In this document: positions 36,120 through 48,251 of the stretch, in pieces
How the letters are laid out: each line of letters starts with the position of its first letter
How positions within the stretch are numbered: position 1 is the stretch's first letter
Origin: Bacteroidota bacterium
GTDB lineage: Bacteria > Bacteroidota > Ignavibacteria > SZUA-365
Length of the DNA stretch: 64,000 nt
NCBI GenBank assembly: GCA_003246455.1
Contig: QKAF01000015.1
Coordinates: 127,193 to 191,192, forward strand
Reading direction: 5' to 3'
Made by a program: the position numbers and the translations under genes
Notes under the pieces: model-generated
Seen by the model: the letters and a program-made list of their open reading frames with translations, nothing else
Database searches by the model: none
Told to the model about the DNA's origin: nothing

Positions 36120-37634
36120 CTATCCCCCTCCCACCATGCGACGGAAGCCGGCGAGAAGCTTCCAGATGAAAGCCCGCCAGAGGTTGATATGCATGGACGA
36201 GGCCGATGCGAGAAGATAATCCAGGTCGTGCCGGTCGGCGCTGGACAGTGAGCGGAGAAGCGGGCCTCCCCCCTTCTCCATCTGCTGCTCGATGCAGGAG
36301 GTCATGCGGCGCGTCACCTCTTCGCGAAGCTTCTCGAACCGCTGACGGAGCTCCGGGTCATTGGTGTTCTTGATGACCACGCTCAGATGATCGATCAGCA
36401 GGGCCAGCTTGCGCAGCTGCTCCAGCGAGCAGTGAAGGTCCAGCTCACGGGCGATCTGTTGGAAAATGTCGTCGATTTCGTTGAACTGCTCCTCGCGGAA
36501 GTCGAACAGGCCGGGAAGGTCCACGTCTTCCACCTGGAGGTGCAGATGGGAAATCCGCTCGAGCTCGTGCCCGTAGCCGACGATGATCTCCTCGGTCATG
36601 GCGTTGACCTGGCGGTCGATTTCCTGCTGTACGGATCGGAGGGAATCTTCATAGCGTCTGCGGAGATGGGGACTCTGCGCCGTATCGCGCTGATGCTTCA
36701 GCTCGGTCTGGCGTTTCTGCAGCCTTTCGATCACCTTGTGCTGCGCAGTGTCTTCCTCGAAAATCTTGTCGTGGATATAGCTTTTCGAGGCGATGAGCTG
36801 GGACCGGCCGATCTTGATCGTATTGATCACGATTCGGTCGCCCAGCAGACGGCGAATCTCATTTTCGTCGAGGGCGCAGGCCCCGTCGGTGATGATGAGG
36901 ATTTCGGTGCCGGAAAGCTGCGGAAGCGCATTGATGTCGTCGACGGCCTGCCTGATCGCCCGCGCCATTGCCGTCCCGTTCCCCAGCGTGTGGAGCCGCA
37001 TCACATAGCTGATCAGCGCCTGGAAACTCGCCATGTCGCGCGCTTCATGCAGTTCGCCGATTTTCGTGTCGAAGGTGCGCAGGTTGATGTACCCGAGTTC
37101 CTTCATGTTGTGCTTGAGGAAATAGTAGACGACCGCCTTGGCAAGGTTGATGCGGTTCTTCATCGCCATCGAACTGGACGTGTCGAGCAGAACATACAGC
37201 TTCTGCTTCCGACGGTCGGGCCGGTAATCGTCGGAATCGGGATCCACGGAATAGTATCGCGGCTCCCGCGGGTAAGGCACCCAGAGTTCCTTTTTCGCCA
37301 GGCGGTTGAAGAAGACGTCTTCCGGAAGCAGCCACTGGTAATTGTAGATCCGCGGAAGGTGCTGCGCGGTGCGGATCAGTCCGGCCTCGTATTCTTCCTG
37401 CTCGTTGATGATGATTTCGAGGTCCTCCCTTTGCTCGGGAGGCGGAATCGTCTTCCCGGGTTCCGTCAGCTGGAGCACCGGCCGCAGCGTCTGCGCGAGC
37501 TGATTGGTTTCGTCCTCGAGAACGCGCGCTATTTCGAACACGGCGGTGAAATCCTCGGGCAGGTCTTCGTAAATATGTTCGAAGAAGCCCAGGTCCTCCA
37601 TCACGTCGAAAAAATGTTCGTATGCGCCCGGCAT
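36120..37634 (-). CDS. VWA-domain protein, partner of a MoxR-family ATPase
   Basis: A 504-residue cytoplasmic protein. A helical N-terminal region (1-140) precedes a von Willebrand A domain with a complete MIDAS (DTSSS at 151-155 and ITDG further on), which binds Mg2+ and a ligand. A charged coiled-coil region (~300-345) and helical C-terminus follow. The gene follows the AAA+ gene by four bases. This resembles the RavA-ViaA pairing, although in ViaA the VWA domain is C-terminal. Such pairs act as chaperones for metal-cofactor or membrane complexes; the client here is unknown. Confidence 0.85.
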   Translation of the reverse strand: MPGAYEHFFDVMEDLGFFEHIYEDLPEDFTAVFEIARVLEDETNQLAQTLRPVLQLTEPGKTIPPPEQREDLEIIINEQEEYEAGLIRTAQHLPRIYNYQWLLPEDVFFNRLAKKELWVPYPREPRYYSVDPDSDDYRPDRRKQKLYVLLDTSSSMAMKNRINLAKAVVYYFLKHNMKELGYINLRTFDTKIGELHEARDMASFQALISYVMRLHTLGNGTAMARAIRQAVDDINALPQLSGTEILIITDGACALDENEIRRLLGDRIVINTIKIGRSQLIASKSYIHDKIFEEDTAQHKVIERLQKRQTELKHQRDTAQSPHLRRRYEDSLRSVQQEIDRQVNAMTEEIIVGYGHELERISHLHLQVEDVDLPGLFDFREEQFNEIDDIFQQIARELDLHCSLEQLRKLALLIDHLSVVIKNTNDPELRQRFEKLREEVTRRMTSCIEQQMEKGGGPLLRSLSSADRHDLDYLLASASSMHINLWRAFIWKLLAGFRRMVGGG

Positions 37635-37638
37635 GGTC

Positions 37639-38946
37639 TCAGGTCCAGATATGTTCCGCGGCCTGGAACAGCGCCTGGATGTCCCGCTCGGTGTTCGAGA
37701 GGAAATCGGCGATCTCTTCCGTGAGGGGTTCGAAGGATTTCAGATACCCCTCGAGCAGACGGCGGTTCTGTTCCTGGGTCGCATTGGTGATGCCCAGGGT
37801 TTCCTTTGCCCATTCCGTCAGCGTCCGTTTCAGGGGCTGTCCCTCGATCTCGCTGATCGGCCGCTGCAGCAGCGATGGATTATGCTTGACGTGTTCGATG
37901 AATTCCTGGAATTCGAGCAGGCGCTGGATCTGATCGAATGCCTTCGCCGAACTCATCTGCTTGAAAATCGTGCTGTAGGATTTCAGGAACAGCTCTTTCT
38001 GGTCGCGGATGCCGACCACGGTGTACAGATACCAGAGCTTCTGGGCGTCCTCCGGGATCACCTCCATCCTACCGTGGAGAAACGCGATGACGCGCAGCAT
38101 GTCCATCGCCCGGGAATAGGTCCGCGGAGAAATGTAGAAGTCCTTGAGATGGGGATGTTCGTGCGGCCGCTCCTTGATGAGCCGGTTTCTCTGTACCTCG
38201 TAATAGCGGACGACGGAATTGGCAAAGAAGATGACGTTGAGCGGGATGTGGATGCTGAATTCCGCATCCAGGCCGCGGATCACATCGGAAGCGCGCTTCA
38301 GCACGGCGTACGGAATCCGCTGCTCCGGGGTGGTCGGCTGCCCCTTGTGCGCCAGGTAGCGCTGGGCGATCTGGTACTGCGTATAGGGCTCTTTCGCCGG
38401 AATGAACAGGGCCTTGAACACGAAGCGGTCAAGCAGCGCTTCGGTGATCTCGCTGACGCGCAGGTAATTGGTCGCCGCGATCACGCTGTGAACGCGGGCC
38501 GGCACATTCTGAACGCCCAGAATGAGCGCGCGTTCGTTCAGCGTCGTCAGCAGCGCGCGCAGCGTGTAGTCATTCGCATCGAAGATCTCGTCAATGAAGC
38601 CGAATTCGCTTTCCACCAGCGAATTCGCGGTGTTATGCATGATTCGTCCTTTTTTGAGTTCGTCGATGTCGAGTCCCCCGAAATACGTGTCGGGCTGCTG
38701 CTCCTTCGAAGCCTGCACCTGGAAGACATTCGCGCCTTCGAACATCCGGAATATCTGCTGTGCGAGCAGGGATTTGGCCGCGCCCGTGCGGCTCTGAATG
38801 AGCGCATGCTCGCGCATCAGCATCGCCGAAAAAATCTGGTCGATGACCTCGGTTCTATTGATGATGCGGCGGTTTACGAGTTCGATGGCGCTTCGAAACT
38901 GCGCGATCACCTGGTCGGGATGGAACGGAGTCTGCTGTTCTGTCAT
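37639..38946 (-). CDS. MoxR-family AAA+ ATPase (RavA-like)
   Basis: A 435-residue AAA+ protein. The P-loop is atypical (SRTGAAKS, with K-S kept), the Walker B is GFIDEIF, and the sensor/arginine region includes ATNYLRVSEITEALLDRF. The length beyond the ~330 of simple MoxR proteins leaves a ~120-residue helical C-terminal extension, as in RavA. The start at 38946 is chosen because AGGAT lies just before it and the N-terminal helix then begins normally. Coupled with the VWA gene and divergent from the TPR operon. Confidence 0.87.
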   Translation of the reverse strand: MTEQQTPFHPDQVIAQFRSAIELVNRRIINRTEVIDQIFSAMLMREHALIQSRTGAAKSLLAQQIFRMFEGANVFQVQASKEQQPDTYFGGLDIDELKKGRIMHNTANSLVESEFGFIDEIFDANDYTLRALLTTLNERALILGVQNVPARVHSVIAATNYLRVSEITEALLDRFVFKALFIPAKEPYTQYQIAQRYLAHKGQPTTPEQRIPYAVLKRASDVIRGLDAEFSIHIPLNVIFFANSVVRYYEVQRNRLIKERPHEHPHLKDFYISPRTYSRAMDMLRVIAFLHGRMEVIPEDAQKLWYLYTVVGIRDQKELFLKSYSTIFKQMSSAKAFDQIQRLLEFQEFIEHVKHNPSLLQRPISEIEGQPLKRTLTEWAKETLGITNATQEQNRRLLEGYLKSFEPLTEEIADFLSNTERDIQALFQAAEHIWT

Positions 38947-39107
38947 ATCCTGCTTGTCGAAATTGAATGTGCCGGAGTGAAAAAGTACGGGATTGCGGAG
39001 AAAGGTCAAACAGCAGTCCCTGCGGAACATTCGATTCCCGCGGAAGGTACTTCCCCGTCTGCGACACGCTATCTATATACATTCGGGCGTGTTTCCGCCG
39101 GTATTCC

Positions 39108-39136
39108 TTGACACTCTACTCAGAGAAACGTAATTT
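39108..39136 (+). promoter_or_regulatory. Candidate promoter of the TPR-HU-TonB operon
   Basis: A perfect TTGACA (39108-39113), a 17-base spacer and TAATTT (39131-39136), followed by G. The start would be near 39143, giving a 60-base leader. No other good promoter was seen up to 47 kb within this gene run. Confidence 0.55.
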
Positions 39137-39204
39137 GTCCAAGTTAAGTGAACCATCTAGAGTATCACTTTAAGTCCCCCGTTTCCATTACAAAAGAGCA
39201 TCGA

Positions 39205-42201
39205 ATGGTACGATATACCGTCCTGCTCCTGCTGCTGGCCTTCCTTGTAAGCGCCGAGGGAAGCGCGCAGGTGAAAAATCTCAAGGAAGAACAGGATTAC
39301 GCGTTCGCGCTCGGCCTGTTCAAAGACCGGAACTACCAGCTTTCCTTCGAAAAATTCCGACAGTTCACCGCCGCGTACCCTGCGAGCCTTCTCCTTCCCG
39401 ACGCCGAATACTATCTCGCCGAATCGCAGTATCAGAATGCGAACCTGACGGATGCGGCGATCGCTTTCGCCGCGTTCCAGGAGAAATACCCTGACAGCAA
39501 ACTCGCCGACGACGCGGGCTTCCGCGAAGGGGAGGTGTACTTCCGGCAGGGCGATTTCCACCGGGCACACGAACAGCTCGCGAAGGTGGTCCGCCGCTGG
39601 CCCGAGGGGAATCTCGCCCACGAAGCCGCGTACTGGGCGGGCGAGGCAGCGTTCAAGGACGGTAACTATCCCCTTGCGATGCGATACTACCGCATCGCGT
39701 TCGAACATTATCCGGAAGGACGCATCCGCGACTACGCGTACTTTTCGATCGGTTTCGTGCTTGAAAAGCAGGAGAAGTTCGACGAGGCGCTCATGAACTA
39801 TGACGAGTTCCTGCGGCTCTTCCCCGAGAGCGGCCTGCGCTCCAGCGTGTATACACGAAAAGGTGCCTGCCTCTATCAGCTCGGAGAACATGAAAAAGCG
39901 CTCGAGTGGCTCGAGTCCCTGAGCGATTCTCCCGATCCGGAAAACGCAGCGGAACGGCTGTTCCTCCGGGCGGAGGCGAACTACAAACTCGGACGGTACG
40001 CCGCTGCCGAAGAACTCTACAAAAGCTTCCTCACCGGATACCCCGACAACAAGCGTGCTCCCCAGGTGCAGTATTCGATGGGCTGGACACAGATCGAACA
40101 GCAGAAATACTCCGAGGCCATCGCGACTTTCGACGAACTCTCAAAGCGTGAAGGGGAACTCGCCGAGGCGGCGCTGTTCAGGAAGGGCATGGCCCTTCGG
40201 CTTAACGGCACGCTCGAAGCTGCCCGGACGGTATTCACCGGGATGATCGAATCGCACCCCGACGGCGACTACGCCGACAACGCGCATTTCGAACTGGGAA
40301 TGGCGGCGTTCAACGAAAACGCTTTCGAGAAGGCCCTCACGCATTTCAGCGCCGTGACCGGATCATTCCCCGACAGCGACGTGCTCGCCGACGCGTGGTT
40401 CATGCAGGGGGAAACCCTGCTCAAGCTCCAGCGTCCGGCGGAGGCCGCGAAAGCCTACGCCGCGGCGGTCGCCGTCCCCTCCGCGACCCAGGAAGTGCTC
40501 AGCAAGGCACTGTTCCGGCAGGGATTCAGCCTTTTCGAGGCCGGCCAGTACGGCGATGCGATTGTCGTCCTGCGCAATTTCGTGCAGCGCTTCCCCGCCG
40601 ACAGCCGAAAAGCCGAGGCGCTTGTCTGGCTGGGAGAGGCGAGCTTCAAGAACGAGGAATTTGACGATGCCGTGATCTTCTACAACCAGGCCCTGGCATC
40701 GACGCAGAATCCGGAACTGCTGCAGGACGCGCTCTACGGACTCGGCTGGACGCATTTCCGCGACCAGCAGTTCGCCGAAGCGGAGCGCGTCTTCACCCGC
40801 CTGACCACCGAGTACCGGGCCGGGAAGAACGACGTTGACGCGAATATCCGCCTCGGTGACGCGCAGTACGCGCAGAAGAAGTTCGCCGACGCGGCGAAAA
40901 CCTACCGCTACGTTTCCCGCATGTACCCGGCGAATCCCCTGTCGGCGTATGCGCTGCTGCAGCTCGCATCCTGCGAACACCGCCTGGGAAACACCCCGAC
41001 CTCGATCAGCACGCTGCGCGGCATGCTCTCGCGCTACCCTGCCTCCGAATTCGCCGACAAGGGACAATTCTCCCTGGCCTGGATGTATTTCCAGAGCAAG
41101 GACTACGACGTCGCCATTACGGAGTTTCAGAAGCTGATTTCCGATTACCCGCAGAGTCCCCTCGTTCCGCAGGCCAGGTACAGCATCGCGGACTGCTACT
41201 ACAACCAGGGCAAATACCGCGAGGCTGAGGACGCCTACCGGCGCGTGCTCGAGCAGCATCCCGATTCCCCGAAGGTCAGCGACGCTCTCGACGGGCTGGC
41301 GCAGACCCTGCGCATGCAGGGGCGCAATGACGAGGCCGATCGCGTCACGAAGGACTGGCTGACGACCAATCCGAAAAGCAATGCCGCAGACGAGGTGGTC
41401 TTCGCAGGAATTCGCGACCTCGCGTCGGAAAACGACCCGTCGCGCTCCATTCCCGCGCTCCAGCGCTTCATCACCGCCCATCCTCAGAGCGGCCTCCTGC
41501 AGGAAGCCTACCTGCTCCTCGGACGCGCCTTCCGGCAGAACAACGATCAGGACGAAGCGGAAAAAACCGTGCGCGAGGCCATCAAGATCGACCCGAAAGG
41601 TGCTCAGGTCCTTGAATGCAAATTCGAACTGATTGAAATCGCGATCGCCCAGCAGGATCGGAACAAGGCACTGGCGATCTGCCAGGAACTCCTTACCGAT
41701 CCGGCGGCACGCGGCGCGCGCGCCCACGTGTATTACAAGCGCGGTCTGACCTACAAGGCGGACGGCAGCAGCACAGCCGCCAAGCAGGATTTCGAGGCAG
41801 CGCAGAAAGCACAGCCGCAGGATCCCTACGCCGTCCTCTCCGCGATCGAGCACGCCGTGATCGTCGCGCAGGACGGGGACGTCGACGCCTCCGTCGCGTC
41901 TCTCGGGGAGATCGCCAGCACCCGCGTCGACGCCATCGGCGCGGAAGCCCAGTACCGCATGGGCGAGGAACTGTGGAAAGTCCGGAGATACCAGGAGGCC
42001 GAAGAGGCGCTGCTCCGCGTCGGCTACGTATTCGGCGATGCGTCGATATGGAATGCCCGCGCCCTCCTGCTGCTCGGCAAAGTCGACGAGGCACTGGGAA
42101 AGAACGAGGATGCCCGGGAGCATTATCGCAAGGTCGTGGCGGAGTACGCCGGATCGGATGAAGCCCAGGAATCCCAGACCCGCCTGGAGATGATGAAATG
42201 A
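39205..42201 (+). CDS. Large periplasmic TPR-repeat protein
   Basis: A 998-residue protein with a signal peptide (ending SAEGSAQ) followed almost entirely by about 25 tetratricopeptide repeats of ~34-37 residues. Examples are DAAIAFAAFQEKYPDSKLADDA, read in two pieces, and FVQRFPADSRKAEALVWLGEA. The Y/F-P-D/E-S motif at helix ends is the YbgF/BamD/outer-membrane-lipoprotein type, which binds partner proteins in the periplasm. No lipobox is present. The start at 39205 is chosen for the signal peptide; an upstream GTG lacks support. Its stop overlaps the next start by four bases, so it is coupled to the outer-membrane barrel gene. Confidence 0.9.
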   Translation: MVRYTVLLLLLAFLVSAEGSAQVKNLKEEQDYAFALGLFKDRNYQLSFEKFRQFTAAYPASLLLPDAEYYLAESQYQNANLTDAAIAFAAFQEKYPDSKLADDAGFREGEVYFRQGDFHRAHEQLAKVVRRWPEGNLAHEAAYWAGEAAFKDGNYPLAMRYYRIAFEHYPEGRIRDYAYFSIGFVLEKQEKFDEALMNYDEFLRLFPESGLRSSVYTRKGACLYQLGEHEKALEWLESLSDSPDPENAAERLFLRAEANYKLGRYAAAEELYKSFLTGYPDNKRAPQVQYSMGWTQIEQQKYSEAIATFDELSKREGELAEAALFRKGMALRLNGTLEAARTVFTGMIESHPDGDYADNAHFELGMAAFNENAFEKALTHFSAVTGSFPDSDVLADAWFMQGETLLKLQRPAEAAKAYAAAVAVPSATQEVLSKALFRQGFSLFEAGQYGDAIVVLRNFVQRFPADSRKAEALVWLGEASFKNEEFDDAVIFYNQALASTQNPELLQDALYGLGWTHFRDQQFAEAERVFTRLTTEYRAGKNDVDANIRLGDAQYAQKKFADAAKTYRYVSRMYPANPLSAYALLQLASCEHRLGNTPTSISTLRGMLSRYPASEFADKGQFSLAWMYFQSKDYDVAITEFQKLISDYPQSPLVPQARYSIADCYYNQGKYREAEDAYRRVLEQHPDSPKVSDALDGLAQTLRMQGRNDEADRVTKDWLTTNPKSNAADEVVFAGIRDLASENDPSRSIPALQRFITAHPQSGLLQEAYLLLGRAFRQNNDQDEAEKTVREAIKIDPKGAQVLECKFELIEIAIAQQDRNKALAICQELLTDPAARGARAHVYYKRGLTYKADGSSTAAKQDFEAAQKAQPQDPYAVLSAIEHAVIVAQDGDVDASVASLGEIASTRVDAIGAEAQYRMGEELWKVRRYQEAEEALLRVGYVFGDASIWNARALLLLGKVDEALGKNEDAREHYRKVVAEYAGSDEAQESQTRLEMMK

Positions 42202-43910
42202 AACATCTCCTCGTGCTCATCGTTTCGATCCTTGCCTTCAGTCCCCTTCTCGCGCAGGATAAACCGCTGCCGCCTCCCCGGGATTTCAAACCGGAGACGA
42301 AGGAAGCCCGCGATGTTCTGCCCGCACTCAACCTGCCGGAATACGTGATCACCGGAAGCGACATGATCAGCTTCACCGAGGATCGCAAAAGCGGTGCCGC
42401 GGTGCCTGACAGCAGGGAATTCACTGCGCGCGCCGGCCGGGGAACCCGCGAACAGCGATTCTTCGATACCTCACCGACACGCATGCCGCTGCGGAAGGCG
42501 GATTTGACGGGCAGCGACGAGGTCCTGCGCATCCGTGCGGGTCTCGGCACGTTTTCCACGCCGATGATCGAAGGCTGGTACGCCGACCGGTATCACCTCG
42601 GAGATGCCGCCGCTCACATGGCCTACGAGCGCAGCGACGGACATGTCTCCCATGCGGATTACTCGCGCTTCGATTTCGATCTCGCTGGAGGGACCTACCT
42701 CCCGCGTGACATTCACCCGCTCTTCGCGTCGTCGCGCATCCAGGGTGACCTCTCCGTGGAAGCACAGGAATACGGACTGTACGCGGATAAACTCATCCGA
42801 CGCGATCCCGCGCTGGATTTTCGCCGCAGCGCCTTCGGTTTCAGTGCCGGCGCGGATCTCGTCTCCCGGCGGAATTCCCTTTTCGAGCATGACCTGCGTG
42901 TTTTCTTCTCTCATTACGGCATCGATGAAGCCCTTGCGGTGCGCGATACGCTTCCGCTCGCGGAGTATCAGCAGACGGAAAACCGCTTCGGCATCGACGG
43001 GGGCGCGAAAACGACGATCCACGGACAGCCCGTGACTCTCGGACTGCGCCTGCATGTCAATGATCTGACCGAGCGCGATGCCGGCGCATCCCGGCCGTTT
43101 TTCACCCGCATTGACGGGCAGTCGACGTTTCTTCTTGCCGAGCGTACCTACCTCGAAGCGTCCGCCGCCATGTACCTGTACCGGGGAAACAACCAGGCGA
43201 GCCAGTTCCGCCTGTACCCCGGCCTTCAGCTTCGCCACCTCCTCAGCGATGACTGGTCGGTGTTTGCCGGCTGGCTGCCGAAAGTGGAGGAGCGGACGTT
43301 CCGCGGCTTCCTCGGACAGAATCCGTACCTCATGCTGGCGTCCGAATTGCAGCATACCGATCTGCCCCTTCGATTCGAAGCCGGCGCGGCATTCGACGAC
43401 CGCGGTCAGAGCAGTGCCCGATTCTCTCTCGAGTACCTCTCGAGCCGATCCTGGCCCCGATTCTCCCTGCTGCCGGATCCGATACAGCAGCAGTGGGAAT
43501 TGCGCTACGACGGACGGGCAGGCATTTTCAATATGCGTGCCGACCTGGCCCATGCGTTCTCCACGGCGACCCGTATCCAGGCGAACCTTGTGCTTCGCAC
43601 CTCCTCGCTCGGCGAGGATGAGGGCCGCGTTCCGTACCTCCCGGATTACGAGGCGCGCGTGCTTCTCCGCCATGATTTTCCGTTCGCGCTCAGCATCCAG
43701 TCCACGGTGCAGCTGGTCGGAGAACAGGAAGCGGACGGCGGCGCCCTGCCCGCCTGGATGCTCCTCGGGCTCGAATTCGAATACAGAATCATCAGAAATT
43801 TTGGCGTATTCCTCCGTTTCGACAACCTGCTTGACCAGAGCTGGCAGCGCTGGCCGGGGTATCGTGAACGCCCGTTCTTCATGATGGGCGGCGTGAGCGC
43901 GCATTTTTGA
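42198..43910 (+). CDS. Outer-membrane beta-barrel protein, TonB-receptor-like
   Basis: A 570-residue protein with a signal peptide (ending SPLLAQ). A short N-terminal region has the stretch LPEYVITGSDMISF, reminiscent of TonB-box/plug starts. Many amphipathic strands follow, ending in an aromatic C-terminal residue (SAHF), a hallmark of outer-membrane barrels. A full plug domain is not evident. It is linked by overlap to the TPR gene and lies three bases ahead of the first HU-like gene, so it is likely the outer-membrane end of the machine encoded downstream. Ligand unknown. Confidence 0.75.
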   Translation: MKHLLVLIVSILAFSPLLAQDKPLPPPRDFKPETKEARDVLPALNLPEYVITGSDMISFTEDRKSGAAVPDSREFTARAGRGTREQRFFDTSPTRMPLRKADLTGSDEVLRIRAGLGTFSTPMIEGWYADRYHLGDAAAHMAYERSDGHVSHADYSRFDFDLAGGTYLPRDIHPLFASSRIQGDLSVEAQEYGLYADKLIRRDPALDFRRSAFGFSAGADLVSRRNSLFEHDLRVFFSHYGIDEALAVRDTLPLAEYQQTENRFGIDGGAKTTIHGQPVTLGLRLHVNDLTERDAGASRPFFTRIDGQSTFLLAERTYLEASAAMYLYRGNNQASQFRLYPGLQLRHLLSDDWSVFAGWLPKVEERTFRGFLGQNPYLMLASELQHTDLPLRFEAGAAFDDRGQSSARFSLEYLSSRSWPRFSLLPDPIQQQWELRYDGRAGIFNMRADLAHAFSTATRIQANLVLRTSSLGEDEGRVPYLPDYEARVLLRHDFPFALSIQSTVQLVGEQEADGGALPAWMLLGLEFEYRIIRNFGVFLRFDNLLDQSWQRWPGYRERPFFMMGGVSAHF

Positions 43911-43913
43911 AAC

Positions 43914-44141
43914 ATGGCGAACGCTTCAGACATACTCGAACGCACCGCCGGGCGACTGGGACTCGATCCACAGGAGCTTCAGCCGTACATGGACGCGCTC
44001 CTCGCGATCTGCGCGGAAGCGCTTGATGCGGGCGAATGCGTTGAACTGATGACTTTCGGCACCCTTTGTCCCGCGACCGACGCGGAAGCTTTCCGTCCCC
44101 ACTCCTCCCTCTTTCCACCGGCAAGCGAGCCGCGGTCATGA
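43914..44141 (+). CDS. Short HU/IHF-fold-like protein (half of a tandem pair)
   Basis: A 75-residue acidic protein. ILERTAGRLGLDPQELQPYM, continued by DALLAICAEALDAGECVELMTFGTL, follows the HU pattern of two helices and then the strand with E-x-V-x-x-x-x-F-G. The basic beta arms of true HU are missing. It resembles the first of the two HU domains in the HU-CCDC81-type proteins of Bacteroidota. Its stop overlaps the next start (ATGA), and the next frame is open through the last 25 codons of this one. The pair may therefore be a split gene or a frameshift of one two-domain protein. Confidence 0.6.
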   Translation: MANASDILERTAGRLGLDPQELQPYMDALLAICAEALDAGECVELMTFGTLCPATDAEAFRPHSSLFPPASEPRS

Positions 44142-45100
44142 CGCGGGAGCAGTTAATACAGGCACTCGCCGACCGTGTCGATGTCCCGGCGCACAGCGCG
44201 CAGGTGTTTCTCCACGCCTGTTTCGACATCATCAAATCACAGCTCCGCGACGGTGAAAGCGTGGTGCTTCCCCTTCTCGGAAAGTGGACCCCGATCCGAG
44301 ACAGCGAGGGCGCGCTCAACGGGGTCGGGTATGCGGCGCTCGCAGACGAGTCGGGCAGGAACGGCGAGGTGCTCCATGGTCCCGCCAGCAGCATCGACGC
44401 ACGGCATTTCATTCCTGCCGCCGCGCTCGACAGCCGGAACGGCGGCATGCGAACCCCGGTGGACATCGCGTCAATTGTCCGGGAAGTCCGCACGGCATTT
44501 TCCCCTGAACCTGAGACGCCTCCGGCGGAAGGCGCGAACTCCGTGGCGTCGCCGGTCCCCGATGCCGCTTCGGACACCGCGTCCTCGGAAACTGCGCGCA
44601 TGGAAGATTTCCCCGTGACTGCTCCGATGACAGCGAGCACCGTGATCGAAGAGAGCGGATCGGAAGAGGACATCCTGCTCGAAGCGGAAATCGAGGCGGA
44701 ACAGTATGCCGGGGAGCTGCTTTCCGAGGAATACGCGGGAGAGGCGACGGACGATGCGGACCATGCGCTGACCGCGGAGGATTATTCCCTCGCCCTGGCT
44801 GACCCGTCAGACATTGCGGATGACGAACCGTTGTACGGGGAAGCGCCGGGTGAAGTCGAGGAAGAGGCACCCGATCCGCTGGCGGACGACGAGGTGTTCA
44901 ACAGAAACCGCGACCAGCTGTATAACCCTCCCGCGGAGACGAGCAAGCGTCCCCTGCTCATTACGGCGGCGATTTTGACCTTGTGCGTGCTCATCATTAT
45001 CGTCTACATTCTTCTCGATCACAGCGCACCGCGCGATCTGCCCGGCAGCGAGCCCGTGGGACAGCGTGCGGCCGCAGGCGCATACAATTTCGACTGTTGA
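44138..45100 (+). CDS. Membrane-anchored protein with N-terminal HU-like domain
   Basis: A 320-residue protein. Residues 1-95 again fit an HU/IHF fold (MTREQLIQALADRVDVPAHS, later DGESVVLPLLGKWTPI). Residues ~110-265 are a long acidic, low-complexity linker rich in E, D, A and P. Residues ~268-292 form one membrane helix (LLITAAILTLCVLIIIVYIL), and a 27-residue tail follows, which would be periplasmic. In Bacteroidota relatives with HU-CCDC81 domains the tail often carries a SPOR peptidoglycan-binding domain; none is present here. The start overlaps the previous stop. It lies 38 bases before exbB and so is probably part of the same machine. Confidence 0.7.
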   Translation: MTREQLIQALADRVDVPAHSAQVFLHACFDIIKSQLRDGESVVLPLLGKWTPIRDSEGALNGVGYAALADESGRNGEVLHGPASSIDARHFIPAAALDSRNGGMRTPVDIASIVREVRTAFSPEPETPPAEGANSVASPVPDAASDTASSETARMEDFPVTAPMTASTVIEESGSEEDILLEAEIEAEQYAGELLSEEYAGEATDDADHALTAEDYSLALADPSDIADDEPLYGEAPGEVEEEAPDPLADDEVFNRNRDQLYNPPAETSKRPLLITAAILTLCVLIIIVYILLDHSAPRDLPGSEPVGQRAAAGAYNFDC

Positions 45101-45138
45101 AACATGAATAGAACTTTATCACCATACCGGAGAATTCG

Positions 45139-45819
45139 ATGACATTGTTCGATCTCTTCCTCAAAGGCGGCGTCGTCATGTGGTTCATCCTCGCCGCTTC
45201 CCTGCTGGCGACGTACATCGTGATCCAGAAGCTCTTCACGCTCTCGCGTGTCAAAGTGGACGGAGGGAAATTCATCCTGCAGATTCGTTCGGTCCTCAGC
45301 CGCGGCGATACCCAGGCTGCCGTGTCGATGTGCTCGGAAGCAGGTACACCGCTGGGAAGCATCCTGCGAGCGGGTCTGCTCAAAATGAAAGGGACCCATC
45401 AGGAAGTGAAAGACGCCGTCGAAAGCGCGGCGCGCATGGAGGTGTACAAACTCGAGCGCGGTCTGGGACTGCTTGCCTCCGTCGCGGGTATCGCCCCTCT
45501 GCTCGGCTTCCTCGGAACGGTCACCGGTATGATCGGTGCCTTTCGCGTCATCGAAGTCAACGAGGGCGTGGTGAATCCCCAGCTCCTCGCCTCAGGAATC
45601 TGGGAAGCGCTGCTGACCACGGCCTTCGGCCTCATCATCGGTATCCCCGCGTACTTCCTCTACAACTACCTGGTAACGCGCGTCAGTCACTTCGTCTTCG
45701 AGACCGAAGCGAGCTGCAACGACTTCCTCGATATCGCACTGACCGAACAGCGGAAGGCGCAGATCGTGGCGAAAAAGGCACAGATGGCGCGTGAAGCCGC
45801 ACAGGGGAAGGCATCATGA
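45139..45819 (+). CDS. exbB: MotA/TolQ/ExbB proton channel protein
   Basis: A 226-residue inner-membrane protein with three membrane helices (about 12-32, 110-135, 155-180). The conserved ExbB/TolQ core includes LGLLASVAGIAPLLGFLGTV and GIWEALLTTAFGLIIGIPAYF when read onward. With ExbD it forms the pentamer-dimer motor that converts proton motive force into movement of TonB or TolA. GGAG is placed before the ATG. The stop overlaps the next start by four bases. Confidence 0.95.
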   Translation: MTLFDLFLKGGVVMWFILAASLLATYIVIQKLFTLSRVKVDGGKFILQIRSVLSRGDTQAAVSMCSEAGTPLGSILRAGLLKMKGTHQEVKDAVESAARMEVYKLERGLGLLASVAGIAPLLGFLGTVTGMIGAFRVIEVNEGVVNPQLLASGIWEALLTTAFGLIIGIPAYFLYNYLVTRVSHFVFETEASCNDFLDIALTEQRKAQIVAKKAQMAREAAQGKAS

Positions 45820-46238
45820 AAATCCAGCTCACACAGGACAACAAACCGCTGACAATATTCAGCTATTCGTCGCTGACGGATATCGTGCTCCTGCTGCTGG
45901 TGTTCTTCCTCCTCACCTCTTCGTTCATCATCACGGAAGGCATCAAGGTAAGCCTTCCCGAAGCGGAGAACACCACCGCCACCGAACAGGATCAGCTCGT
46001 GGTTGCCCTGCTCAATGACGGACGGATCTTCCTCAACAATGTGGAGATTCCGGTGGACATGTTCCCCGGCGCGCTGAAAGAACGACTGACGGATCCGGAA
46101 AAGCAGGTTATCGTGCTTTCCAGCGACGCGGATGTGCCCATCGAACGGGCGGTATTCGTGATGGACGAGGCGAAAGGCCTGGGCGCGACAAGATTTTTCA
46201 TTTCCACCACGCGAAAAGAGAACGATGACACTCCATAG
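45816..46238 (+). CDS. exbD: ExbD/TolR family biopolymer transporter
   Basis: A 140-residue protein with an N-terminal membrane helix that bears the essential aspartate (SLTDIVLLLLVFFLLTSSF), followed by the periplasmic ExbD/TolR domain. The domain includes VVALLNDGRIFLNN and DADVPIERAVFVMDEAK. It forms the dimer inside the ExbB pentamer. It overlaps exbB by four bases and the TonB gene by 14, showing tight translational coupling. Confidence 0.94.
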   Translation: MKIQLTQDNKPLTIFSYSSLTDIVLLLLVFFLLTSSFIITEGIKVSLPEAENTTATEQDQLVVALLNDGRIFLNNVEIPVDMFPGALKERLTDPEKQVIVLSSDADVPIERAVFVMDEAKGLGATRFFISTTRKENDDTP

Positions 46239-47076
46239 CGATGACGCGAAAAGCTGGGGCATTTCCATCGGACTGCACGCGCTGCTGCTTCTGATCATGA
46301 TTTTCTGGGCTGCCTTTCCGCAGATCCAGCGCATGCCGCAGGAAATTCAGCTCCAGTTCATCATGCCGCAGGAGCGCAGCGAACAGCCTCCCATCGTGGA
46401 ATCCCGCCCGCGTGTGCAGCAGACCGTTCCTCAACAGCGTTCCGCCTCGCCGCAGGTCCGCAGCACCACCAGCGTTTCCCAGCCTGCGGCGCGTCCCGCG
46501 CCTTCCCGGCAGTCCAAGTCGCGAGATGCGGGGAAAGTCGAATCCGCCCCATCCACTCCGGTGGCGCCGCGGCAGCTCCGCGGCGGCGACGACGCGATTG
46601 ATTTCATGGATCAGGGCGGCGGGAAATCCGAGCGCAGCAGCGCGCCCGCGACAGGCGAGTTCACGCGGCGCGAGTCACGTGAACAGGGGCTATCCACCTC
46701 GGCACATTCCTCCGACAACGTCACGGGCGCGGGAACGGGGACGCAGAACGTTCTGACCTCGGACCCGGGCACCCTCAGTGCGACGCCGCGTTCATCGGCG
46801 AATATCGAATGGGACGGCGGCCTTTCCCGTAACAGAATCGCCGGTGTTCTCCCCGCCTTCCCGCCGGGTGCCACGCGTGAAGTCCAGGTCGCTGTCCGGT
46901 TTCGTGTGCGCCCCGACGGAGGCATGTACGGCATGACCGTCATTCAGAAAGGCGACCCGCGATATGAGCGCGCCGCACTGGACGCGATGCGTACCTGGCG
47001 CTTCAATGCGCTCCCGGCAAACGCGAAGCAGGCAGACCAGGTCGGCACGGCCGTATTCACGTTCAAACTGAAATAG
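46225..47076 (+). CDS. tonB: TonB-like energy transducer
   Basis: A 283-residue protein with a single N-terminal membrane helix (about residues 8-30). A long Pro/Ser/Gln/Arg-rich periplasmic linker follows, which is less Pro-Lys-rich than in classical TonB. The C-terminal ~80 residues form a TonB domain with the pattern VQVAVRFRVRPDGGMYG, YERAALDAMRTWRF and AVFTFKLK. The GlyPro-rich YP motif of E. coli TonB is absent. It would carry force from ExbBD to an outer-membrane partner, probably the barrel encoded in the same operon. The 14-base overlap with exbD supports a dedicated motor. Confidence 0.88.
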   Translation: MTLHSDDAKSWGISIGLHALLLLIMIFWAAFPQIQRMPQEIQLQFIMPQERSEQPPIVESRPRVQQTVPQQRSASPQVRSTTSVSQPAARPAPSRQSKSRDAGKVESAPSTPVAPRQLRGGDDAIDFMDQGGGKSERSSAPATGEFTRRESREQGLSTSAHSSDNVTGAGTGTQNVLTSDPGTLSATPRSSANIEWDGGLSRNRIAGVLPAFPPGATREVQVAVRFRVRPDGGMYGMTVIQKGDPRYERAALDAMRTWRFNALPANAKQADQVGTAVFTFKLK

Positions 47077-47169: not shown

Positions 47170-47291
47170 GGGCATCAGGGACGTGGAATGATATTGTGTC
47201 ACATCGGTGCTTCGCTCTACATTTGCTCTTGTGATCGCCCGCGGGTGTCGACCTCGCACCCCCGAGAATGTTGTACTTGGAGCTGAATTTC

Positions 47292-48251
47292 ATGATACGT
47301 CACTCTCTTTTCCTGCTGCTCGTTCTCGCCTGCATGGAGCTCCCGCTTCTGCACGCACAGACACCGCAAGAACTTGCGGCAGCAAAGGAATCCCTGGTGA
47401 GGGAAGTCAGCGCGATGATGGAAACGCGCGTGCTGCCTGTCATGGCGCAGTGGAAAACGCAGTTTGAATCGCGGATTCCGCCGCGGGAACGCGAAACACT
47501 CGAATCCATCCGCGATCGCTACGGGATGCTGCAGACCATTCTGGAAAATAATCTCCGCGCGCGCCAGGCGGCATGGGACCGGCATGACTACGCAAGCTTC
47601 ACCTCGCTTCGGGGACTGCTGCGCACGAACTTCGAAGACCGGCAAAAGCTGTACGCCGAACTCGCACGTTTCACCGAGAGAAATGAAAAGCCCTTCCATT
47701 ATCTCACCTCCCGTATCGATTCGACGGTCGAGGAATGGCGTGGCGCGTCTATGCGGATTTTCGTCGATTGGTTCGCGAAAAACCGCAACGTGATTTCGAC
47801 GGCGATGAATTCCCCTGCCCGCGACGACCTGGCGAGCCTGATGGCCTCGTGCAAGAATATCCAGCTGGAAGAACTTGATGAGCGGGCGAAAGCGACGTTC
47901 CTGCTCTGGGACGGAAAAGACTACCTCCAGCACATCCGTCAGCACGGGATCCCGGAATCCCCGCTCACCGACTGCGGACCCGTGCGTGAAGATATCCTGT
48001 TAGCCGAATCCCCCGCCTATTCCCCGGGAAAAGCGACCATCCGCTTCCTGCTCCCAACGCCCGCCCATGCGACCGTCCGGGCATTCAGCGCTGACGGAGG
48101 CGAAATCCGGACGCTGTACAAGGGCGACCTCCCTGTCGGGAAGCACCTGGTGACGCTCGTCACCGAGGACCTTCGCCCCGGGACCTATTACGTGGCGGTT
48201 GAAGCGGGATCGCTCATCGATGCGGTTCCCGTGCGTGTCACCGGACGGTGA
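47292..48251 (+). CDS. Secreted protein of unknown function with sorting-domain-like C-terminus
   Basis: A 319-residue protein with a signal peptide (ending LLHAQ). A mainly helical, charged middle region (about 25-230) contains a CK and a later DCGP cysteine. The ~75-residue C-terminal beta domain (RAFSADGGEIRTL, PVGKHLVTLVTEDLRPGTYYV) has the look of a FlgD/Por-secretion-type sandwich. It lacks the terminal K-rich motif of classical sorting domains. The start at 47292 is chosen for the signal peptide. The stop abuts the stop of the convergent helicase gene with no spacer. Role unknown. Confidence 0.6.
   Translation: MIRHSLFLLLVLACMELPLLHAQTPQELAAAKESLVREVSAMMETRVLPVMAQWKTQFESRIPPRERETLESIRDRYGMLQTILENNLRARQAAWDRHDYASFTSLRGLLRTNFEDRQKLYAELARFTERNEKPFHYLTSRIDSTVEEWRGASMRIFVDWFAKNRNVISTAMNSPARDDLASLMASCKNIQLEELDERAKATFLLWDGKDYLQHIRQHGIPESPLTDCGPVREDILLAESPAYSPGKATIRFLLPTPAHATVRAFSADGGEIRTLYKGDLPVGKHLVTLVTEDLRPGTYYVAVEAGSLIDAVPVRVTGR

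Follow-up and report, generated by a model that had tools for sequence, protein, structure and literature searches.

Seven genes lie between positions 39205 and 47076 on the forward strand of the window, by which we mean the whole 64-kb stretch of DNA that was analyzed, and all seven open reading frames are intact. Table 1 lists the genes together with the promoter and leader that precede them. Recomputed from the DNA, the intergenic distances were −4 (TPR/barrel), +3 (barrel/HU1), −4 (HU1/HU2), +38 (HU2/exbB), −4 (exbB/exbD), and −14 (exbD/tonB) bases, with negative values denoting overlaps. These figures are identical to those of the first-pass annotation, which had described seven coupled genes with six such junctions. 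Its component assignments were also recovered: the TPR protein, the two HU-fold proteins, ExbB, ExbD, and TonB are Pfam matches, and the barrel was identified by modeling.

Table 1. Features of the operon and its leader (window coordinates)
Feature	Coordinates	Strand	Description
Promoter/leader	39108..39180	+	TTGACA-17-TAATTT(G) plus inverted repeat, conserved upstream in relatives
TPR scaffold	39205..42201	+	998 aa, with signal peptide and numerous YbgF/CpoB-like repeats
Outer-membrane barrel	42198..43910	+	570 aa, disordered N terminus followed by 22-strand barrel, no plug
HU1	43914..44141	+	75 aa, acidic arm-less HU-fold protein
HU2	44138..45100	+	320 aa, arm-less HU domain, acidic linker, one TM segment
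ExbB/TolQ-type proton channel subunit	45139..45819	+	Pfam MotA_ExbB
ExbD/TolR-type subunit	45816..46238	+	Pfam ExbD; membrane Asp D22
TonB-like energy transducer	46225..47076	+	TM segment near N terminus, TonB_C domain

Two neighbors flank the operon. A divergent gene pair encoding an AAA ATPase and a VWA-like protein (36120-39030) adjoins it across its own family and is also found near it in family f16 (L119-L121). On the other side, 191 bases 3' of the operon, a gene at 47268-48251 encodes a probably secreted protein of 327 amino acids with a weak FlgD-Ig match; this gene adjoins tonB in only some relatives.

Motor, scaffold, barrel, and leader

The three motor proteins matched MotA_ExbB (PF01618; 106 bits), ExbD (PF02472; 88.6 bits), and TonB_C (29.5 bits; cutoff, 24.6). 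The membrane aspartate of ExbD and two threonine positions of ExbB align to those of solved ExbB/ExbD. The tolQ model (97 bits; cutoff, 221) and the tolR model (47 bits; cutoff, 127) both scored above the exbB and exbD models, and all of these scores were below the cutoffs. Since a separate energizer cluster, exbB-exbD-exbD, is located elsewhere in the same genome (G000:C128:15318-15671, L226), the ExbB-ExbD motor is probably dedicated to this operon.

The start of the TPR gene was placed at the ATG at 39205, where identity among relatives sets in. Its product carries YbgF/CpoB-like Pfam TPR repeats and, among natural PDB entries, best matches CpoB, a coordinator of cell division. No Pfam family, the plug domain included, matched the barrel. 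In the AlphaFold model, residues 27 to 106 are disordered and 22 strands, counted from the DSSP line, follow from residue 110 on; the best structural match is BtuB (E = 1e-16), and both Foldseek and the profile search placed the barrel with the TonB-dependent transporters. The disordered N terminus, of about 85 amino acids, carries LPEYVITG in the source protein, and (E)LPEFVITG near the mature N terminus is kept across the class, with the strict pattern present in 63 of 91 barrels. Its position and resemblance suggest that this motif is a TonB box.

A single TTGACA promoter had been proposed for the block. Although the hexamer at 39108-39113 fell below the cutoff in a simple sigma-70 promoter scan, TTGACA-17-TAnnTT is kept 5' of the operon in all six aligned sequences (the source and five relatives). 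An inverted repeat lies just 3' of it in most of the six, AAGTGA-N13-TCACTT at 39146-39170 in the source, and the leader between promoter and TPR gene (39126-39180) is strongly conserved among relatives. The 33-base element around this repeat occurs once in the genome; thus, a regulon sharing it was rejected, and the repeat is possibly an operon-specific operator or a 5' untranslated region (UTR) element. The Bacteroidetes-type promoter pattern had no match within the 64-kb window.

Conservation of gene order and the membrane subunit

The shared gene order is TPR, barrel, (HU1), (HU2)-TM-(SPOR), exbB, exbD, and tonB, with variable parts in parentheses. Within the source's own family, it is kept in 10 of 10 relatives as far as the contigs reach. 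At the class level, the barrel profile matched 130 of 197 genomes, and we surveyed the regions around 40 of these 130; an independent survey used the TPR profile and covered 41 loci labeled Ignavibacteria or Bacteroidetes. Both recovered the order TPR, barrel, membrane protein, exbB, exbD, and tonB, and in several class families exbB and exbD are absent from the cluster, with TPR-barrel-SPOR-TonB retained. For the wider phylum, 18 loci were fetched with the HU-CCDC81_bac_2 model; in 14 of them the barrel immediately preceded the HU gene, and in 11 exbB and exbD came next. The order recurs far beyond chance, being found in dozens of genomes with barrel identity falling to about 15 to 25%. A comparison of gene order in related genomes had been suggested with the first-pass annotation; conservation was borne out across family, class, and wider phylum, which is more than that suggestion encompassed.

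HU1 matched PF00216 at 23.0 bits (cutoff, 22.4) and HU2 at 29.9 bits, the matches covering only the N-terminal 53 to 55 of 90 positions, i.e., the helical dimerization half and the first strands. A model of HU2 residues 1 to 130 comprised α1 (residues 3 to 13), α2 (18 to 37), and strands; its top PDB hits were without exception HU and IHF (best Foldseek E = 0.007), at a mean pLDDT of only 62.6 from an alignment of four sequences. The HU fold first assigned to both small proteins is thus upheld, by Pfam for the two and by modeling for HU2. The DNA-binding arm motif RNPxTG is absent from both source proteins. HU1 has a pI of 4.2, residues 1 to 60 of HU2 have a pI of about 5.5, and the linker has a net charge of −37. 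The HU domain of HU2 is N-terminal, and its linker and membrane helix are followed by a 27-residue periplasmic tail; Pfam gave no SPOR match in HU2. The juxtamembrane motif VFxRNRDQLYxPPxE and the membrane helix are invariant across the source's own family. Neither PF18174 nor PF18175 matched the source HU1 or HU2 at E < 1, and profile-profile comparison of HU1/HU2 with sets from other phylum members gave probabilities of 89 to 96% (controls, <1%).

The fourth gene encodes a single-pass membrane protein, with a C-terminal SPOR domain outside the taxonomic order of the source. The SPOR domain of FtsN and DedD binds septal glycan. An HU domain is present in the cytoplasmic portion of the fourth-gene product of class families f11 (weak), f13, f14, f18, f22, and f26, as well as in that of the other phylum members examined; in many class families, the gene encodes TM-SPOR without HU. 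HU1 is a separate small gene (65 to 93 amino acids) in some lineages and is fused to HU2 in others, a single HU1-HU2 reading frame being found in G004 and G006 of the source's own family and in other phylum members. A supposed absence of HU1 from G006 was rejected, as HU1 is fused to HU2 there. The fused form at L190 exceeded the cutoffs of PF18174, PF18175, and PF05036, and that at L189 exceeded those of both HU-CCDC81 families. Because these two forms exceed the HU-CCDC81_bac_1 and _2 cutoffs, the membrane-anchored HU protein, initially regarded as foreign to any familiar envelope machine, is a known architecture: HU-CCDC81 with TM and SPOR is a Pfam-recognized combination in Bacteroidota. 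By its place in the operon, the fourth gene corresponds to this CCDC81-like HU1/HU2-TM-SPOR architecture.

The counterparts of these genes in f13 and f18 code for HU proteins that are full-length and basic (pI 8.7 to 10.1). HU1 at L124 (pI 10.1) has the full arm motif RSGRNPKTG, and related motifs, RKGVNPKTG and RRGINPQTG, occur at L115 and L116. In two genomes of the source's genus (G001 and G002), HU1 and the HU2 domain are deleted and the rest of the operon is kept (L033, 9191-9825; L034, 2195-3139). The residual membrane protein starts a few bases from the barrel stop codon, and the remaining HU1-profile matches are only weak, lie elsewhere, and resemble the matches that the profile gives to the ordinary HU of other genomes. 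The two genomes were assembled from metagenomes, and a single deletion common to them may account for both losses. Since two congeners lost both modules and many class members have TM-SPOR only, the HU pair is an accessory of the machine. SPOR is also missing in family f3 of the same order (L096, 1337-2527), where the juxtamembrane motif is degenerate (KKREQFYSPPGE); thus, SPOR was apparently lost at the level of the order to which the source genome belongs.

Proposed machine and alternatives

We give roughly even odds (about 50%) to the operon encoding a dedicated Bacteroidota motor of the Tol/Ton type that couples the two membranes and the cell wall between them, probably when the cell divides. 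Judging from the protein families, ExbB-ExbD would be powered by the proton gradient and would drive the TonB-like transducer across the periplasm, where TonB_C may engage (E)LPEFVITG on the free N terminus of the plugless barrel. The products would then form a physical complex in which TonB pulls on the barrel, and the TPR protein, 998 amino acids long, would bridge the parts in the periplasm. HU2, as a membrane protein beside ExbBD, would position the complex, in most orthologues through SPOR on septal glycan and, in the SPOR-less order of the source, perhaps by means of the juxtamembrane motif and the portion facing the cytoplasm. HU1 and HU2 may pair as an HU-type heterodimer that serves to contact other proteins instead of gripping DNA. 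By analogy with Tol-Pal, the machine would likely act, probably while the cell constricts, to pull or stabilize the outer membrane against the wall.

The first-pass proposal of a trans-envelope complex driven by proton motive force gains support as a dedicated, probably proton-driven machine from the parts and their conserved order; the absence of exbB and exbD from the cluster in several class families counts against the motor. The division link suggested at the same time is plausible, given the SPOR domain in most orthologues of the membrane subunit, but the source lineage lacks this domain, which is the chief indication of a septal location, and its absence counts against a septal role there. 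If the proposed motor is correct, a single conserved machine may, throughout a major phylum, link the outer membrane and cell wall to the cytoplasm, and HU-SPOR membrane proteins gain a concrete context. Outer-membrane constriction in these bacteria, in whose relatives we found no TolB, becomes directly testable by knockout, and the lineage series of armed HU, arm-less HU, and deleted HU offers a natural experiment on the role of HU. Apart from the 2017 HU-clade work, in which the gene neighborhood may be mentioned, the open-access literature searched contained no description of the complete system.

Among the alternatives, TonB-dependent transport fares best, though we consider it unlikely. 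The barrel would import or export a substrate, served by a dedicated ExbBD-TonB and a TPR helper, as its transporter-like fold, TonB_C, and the N-terminal TonB-box-like motif might suggest. However, since the barrel has no plug, the usual gated uptake is hard to see; moreover, near-universal pairing with TM-SPOR proteins and 1,000-amino-acid TPR proteins is unlike nutrient-specific transporters, and substrate genes were not seen in the operon.

Two further readings give the HU modules a DNA-related role. In one, which we regard as doubtful, the operon would be an undescribed phylum-wide counterpart of Tol-Pal whose HU heterodimer, in armed-HU lineages, reads DNA or nucleoid position and gates a proton-driven septal pull on the outer membrane. 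In the other, marginally more doubtful, DNA binding by HU1 and HU2 would couple the position of the chromosome to the envelope motor. The HU fold, the basic full-length proteins of f13 and f18, and the arm motifs at L124, L115, and L116 agree with such a tether, as does the title of the HU-clade paper (Burroughs 2017, as cited in PMC5906684), which names chromosome partitioning. Against it, the source lineage has no arm and is acidic (HU1 pI, 4.2; HU2 domain pI, about 5.5; linker charge, −37), and the HU modules are lost in G001 and G002 and absent from many class families. For the source genome, the nucleoid sensing or tethering envisaged in the first pass is therefore unlikely; for lineages whose HU proteins are armed and basic, tethering is less improbable.

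Signaling, in which the barrel-TonB state would pass via HU2 to cytoplasmic HU1/HU2 and regulate genes, appears very improbable: a cytoplasmic HU pair joined to a TM protein beside ExbB would suit it, but the operon has no regulator or sigma factor, and congeners do without the HU part. Least credible is a set of cotranscribed yet functionally separate genes, which would fit the 38-base HU2/exbB gap and the absence of exbBD from the cluster in several families but not the HU1-HU2 fusions or an order held across class and phylum at about 15 to 30% barrel identity.

Comparison with known systems

With HU/IHF DNA-binding proteins, HU1 and HU2 share the α1-α2-β fold, but they have neither the arm nor a basic surface. 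HU-CCDC81_bac_1/2-TM-SPOR proteins (PF18174, PF18175, PF05036) have the same operon position and single-pass layout, with the HU pair N-terminal of the helix, whereas the source proteins match PF00216 only, HU1 and HU2 are separate genes, and SPOR is lost.

The Agl-Glt gliding machinery combines a motor of the TolQR type with TPR proteins and partners in the outer membrane and works in a manner like that proposed here. To our knowledge, it has no HU or SPOR membrane subunit. The GltC model scored far below its cutoff in the operon proteins; this Myxococcus machinery is the subject of PMC3169522.

ExbB-ExbD-TonB systems with their TonB-dependent transporters have PF01618, PF02472, TonB_C, a 22-strand barrel, and a TonB-box-like motif in common with the operon; unlike theirs, the operon's barrel has no plug, and the genome holds the separate exbB-exbD-exbD cluster. 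As for Tol-Pal (TolQRA-TolB-Pal-CpoB), TolB_N (PF04052) was found in 0 of 41 relatives' genomes, with Escherichia coli, Caulobacter, and Bacteroides ihuae as positive controls, and the tolA model was below its cutoff in the operon proteins. The operon resembles Tol-Pal in its candidate TolQ/TolR-like motor, its TM reach protein, its YbgF/CpoB-like TPR repeats, and, likely, its coupling to the outer membrane, and differs in having a barrel and an HU/SPOR subunit.
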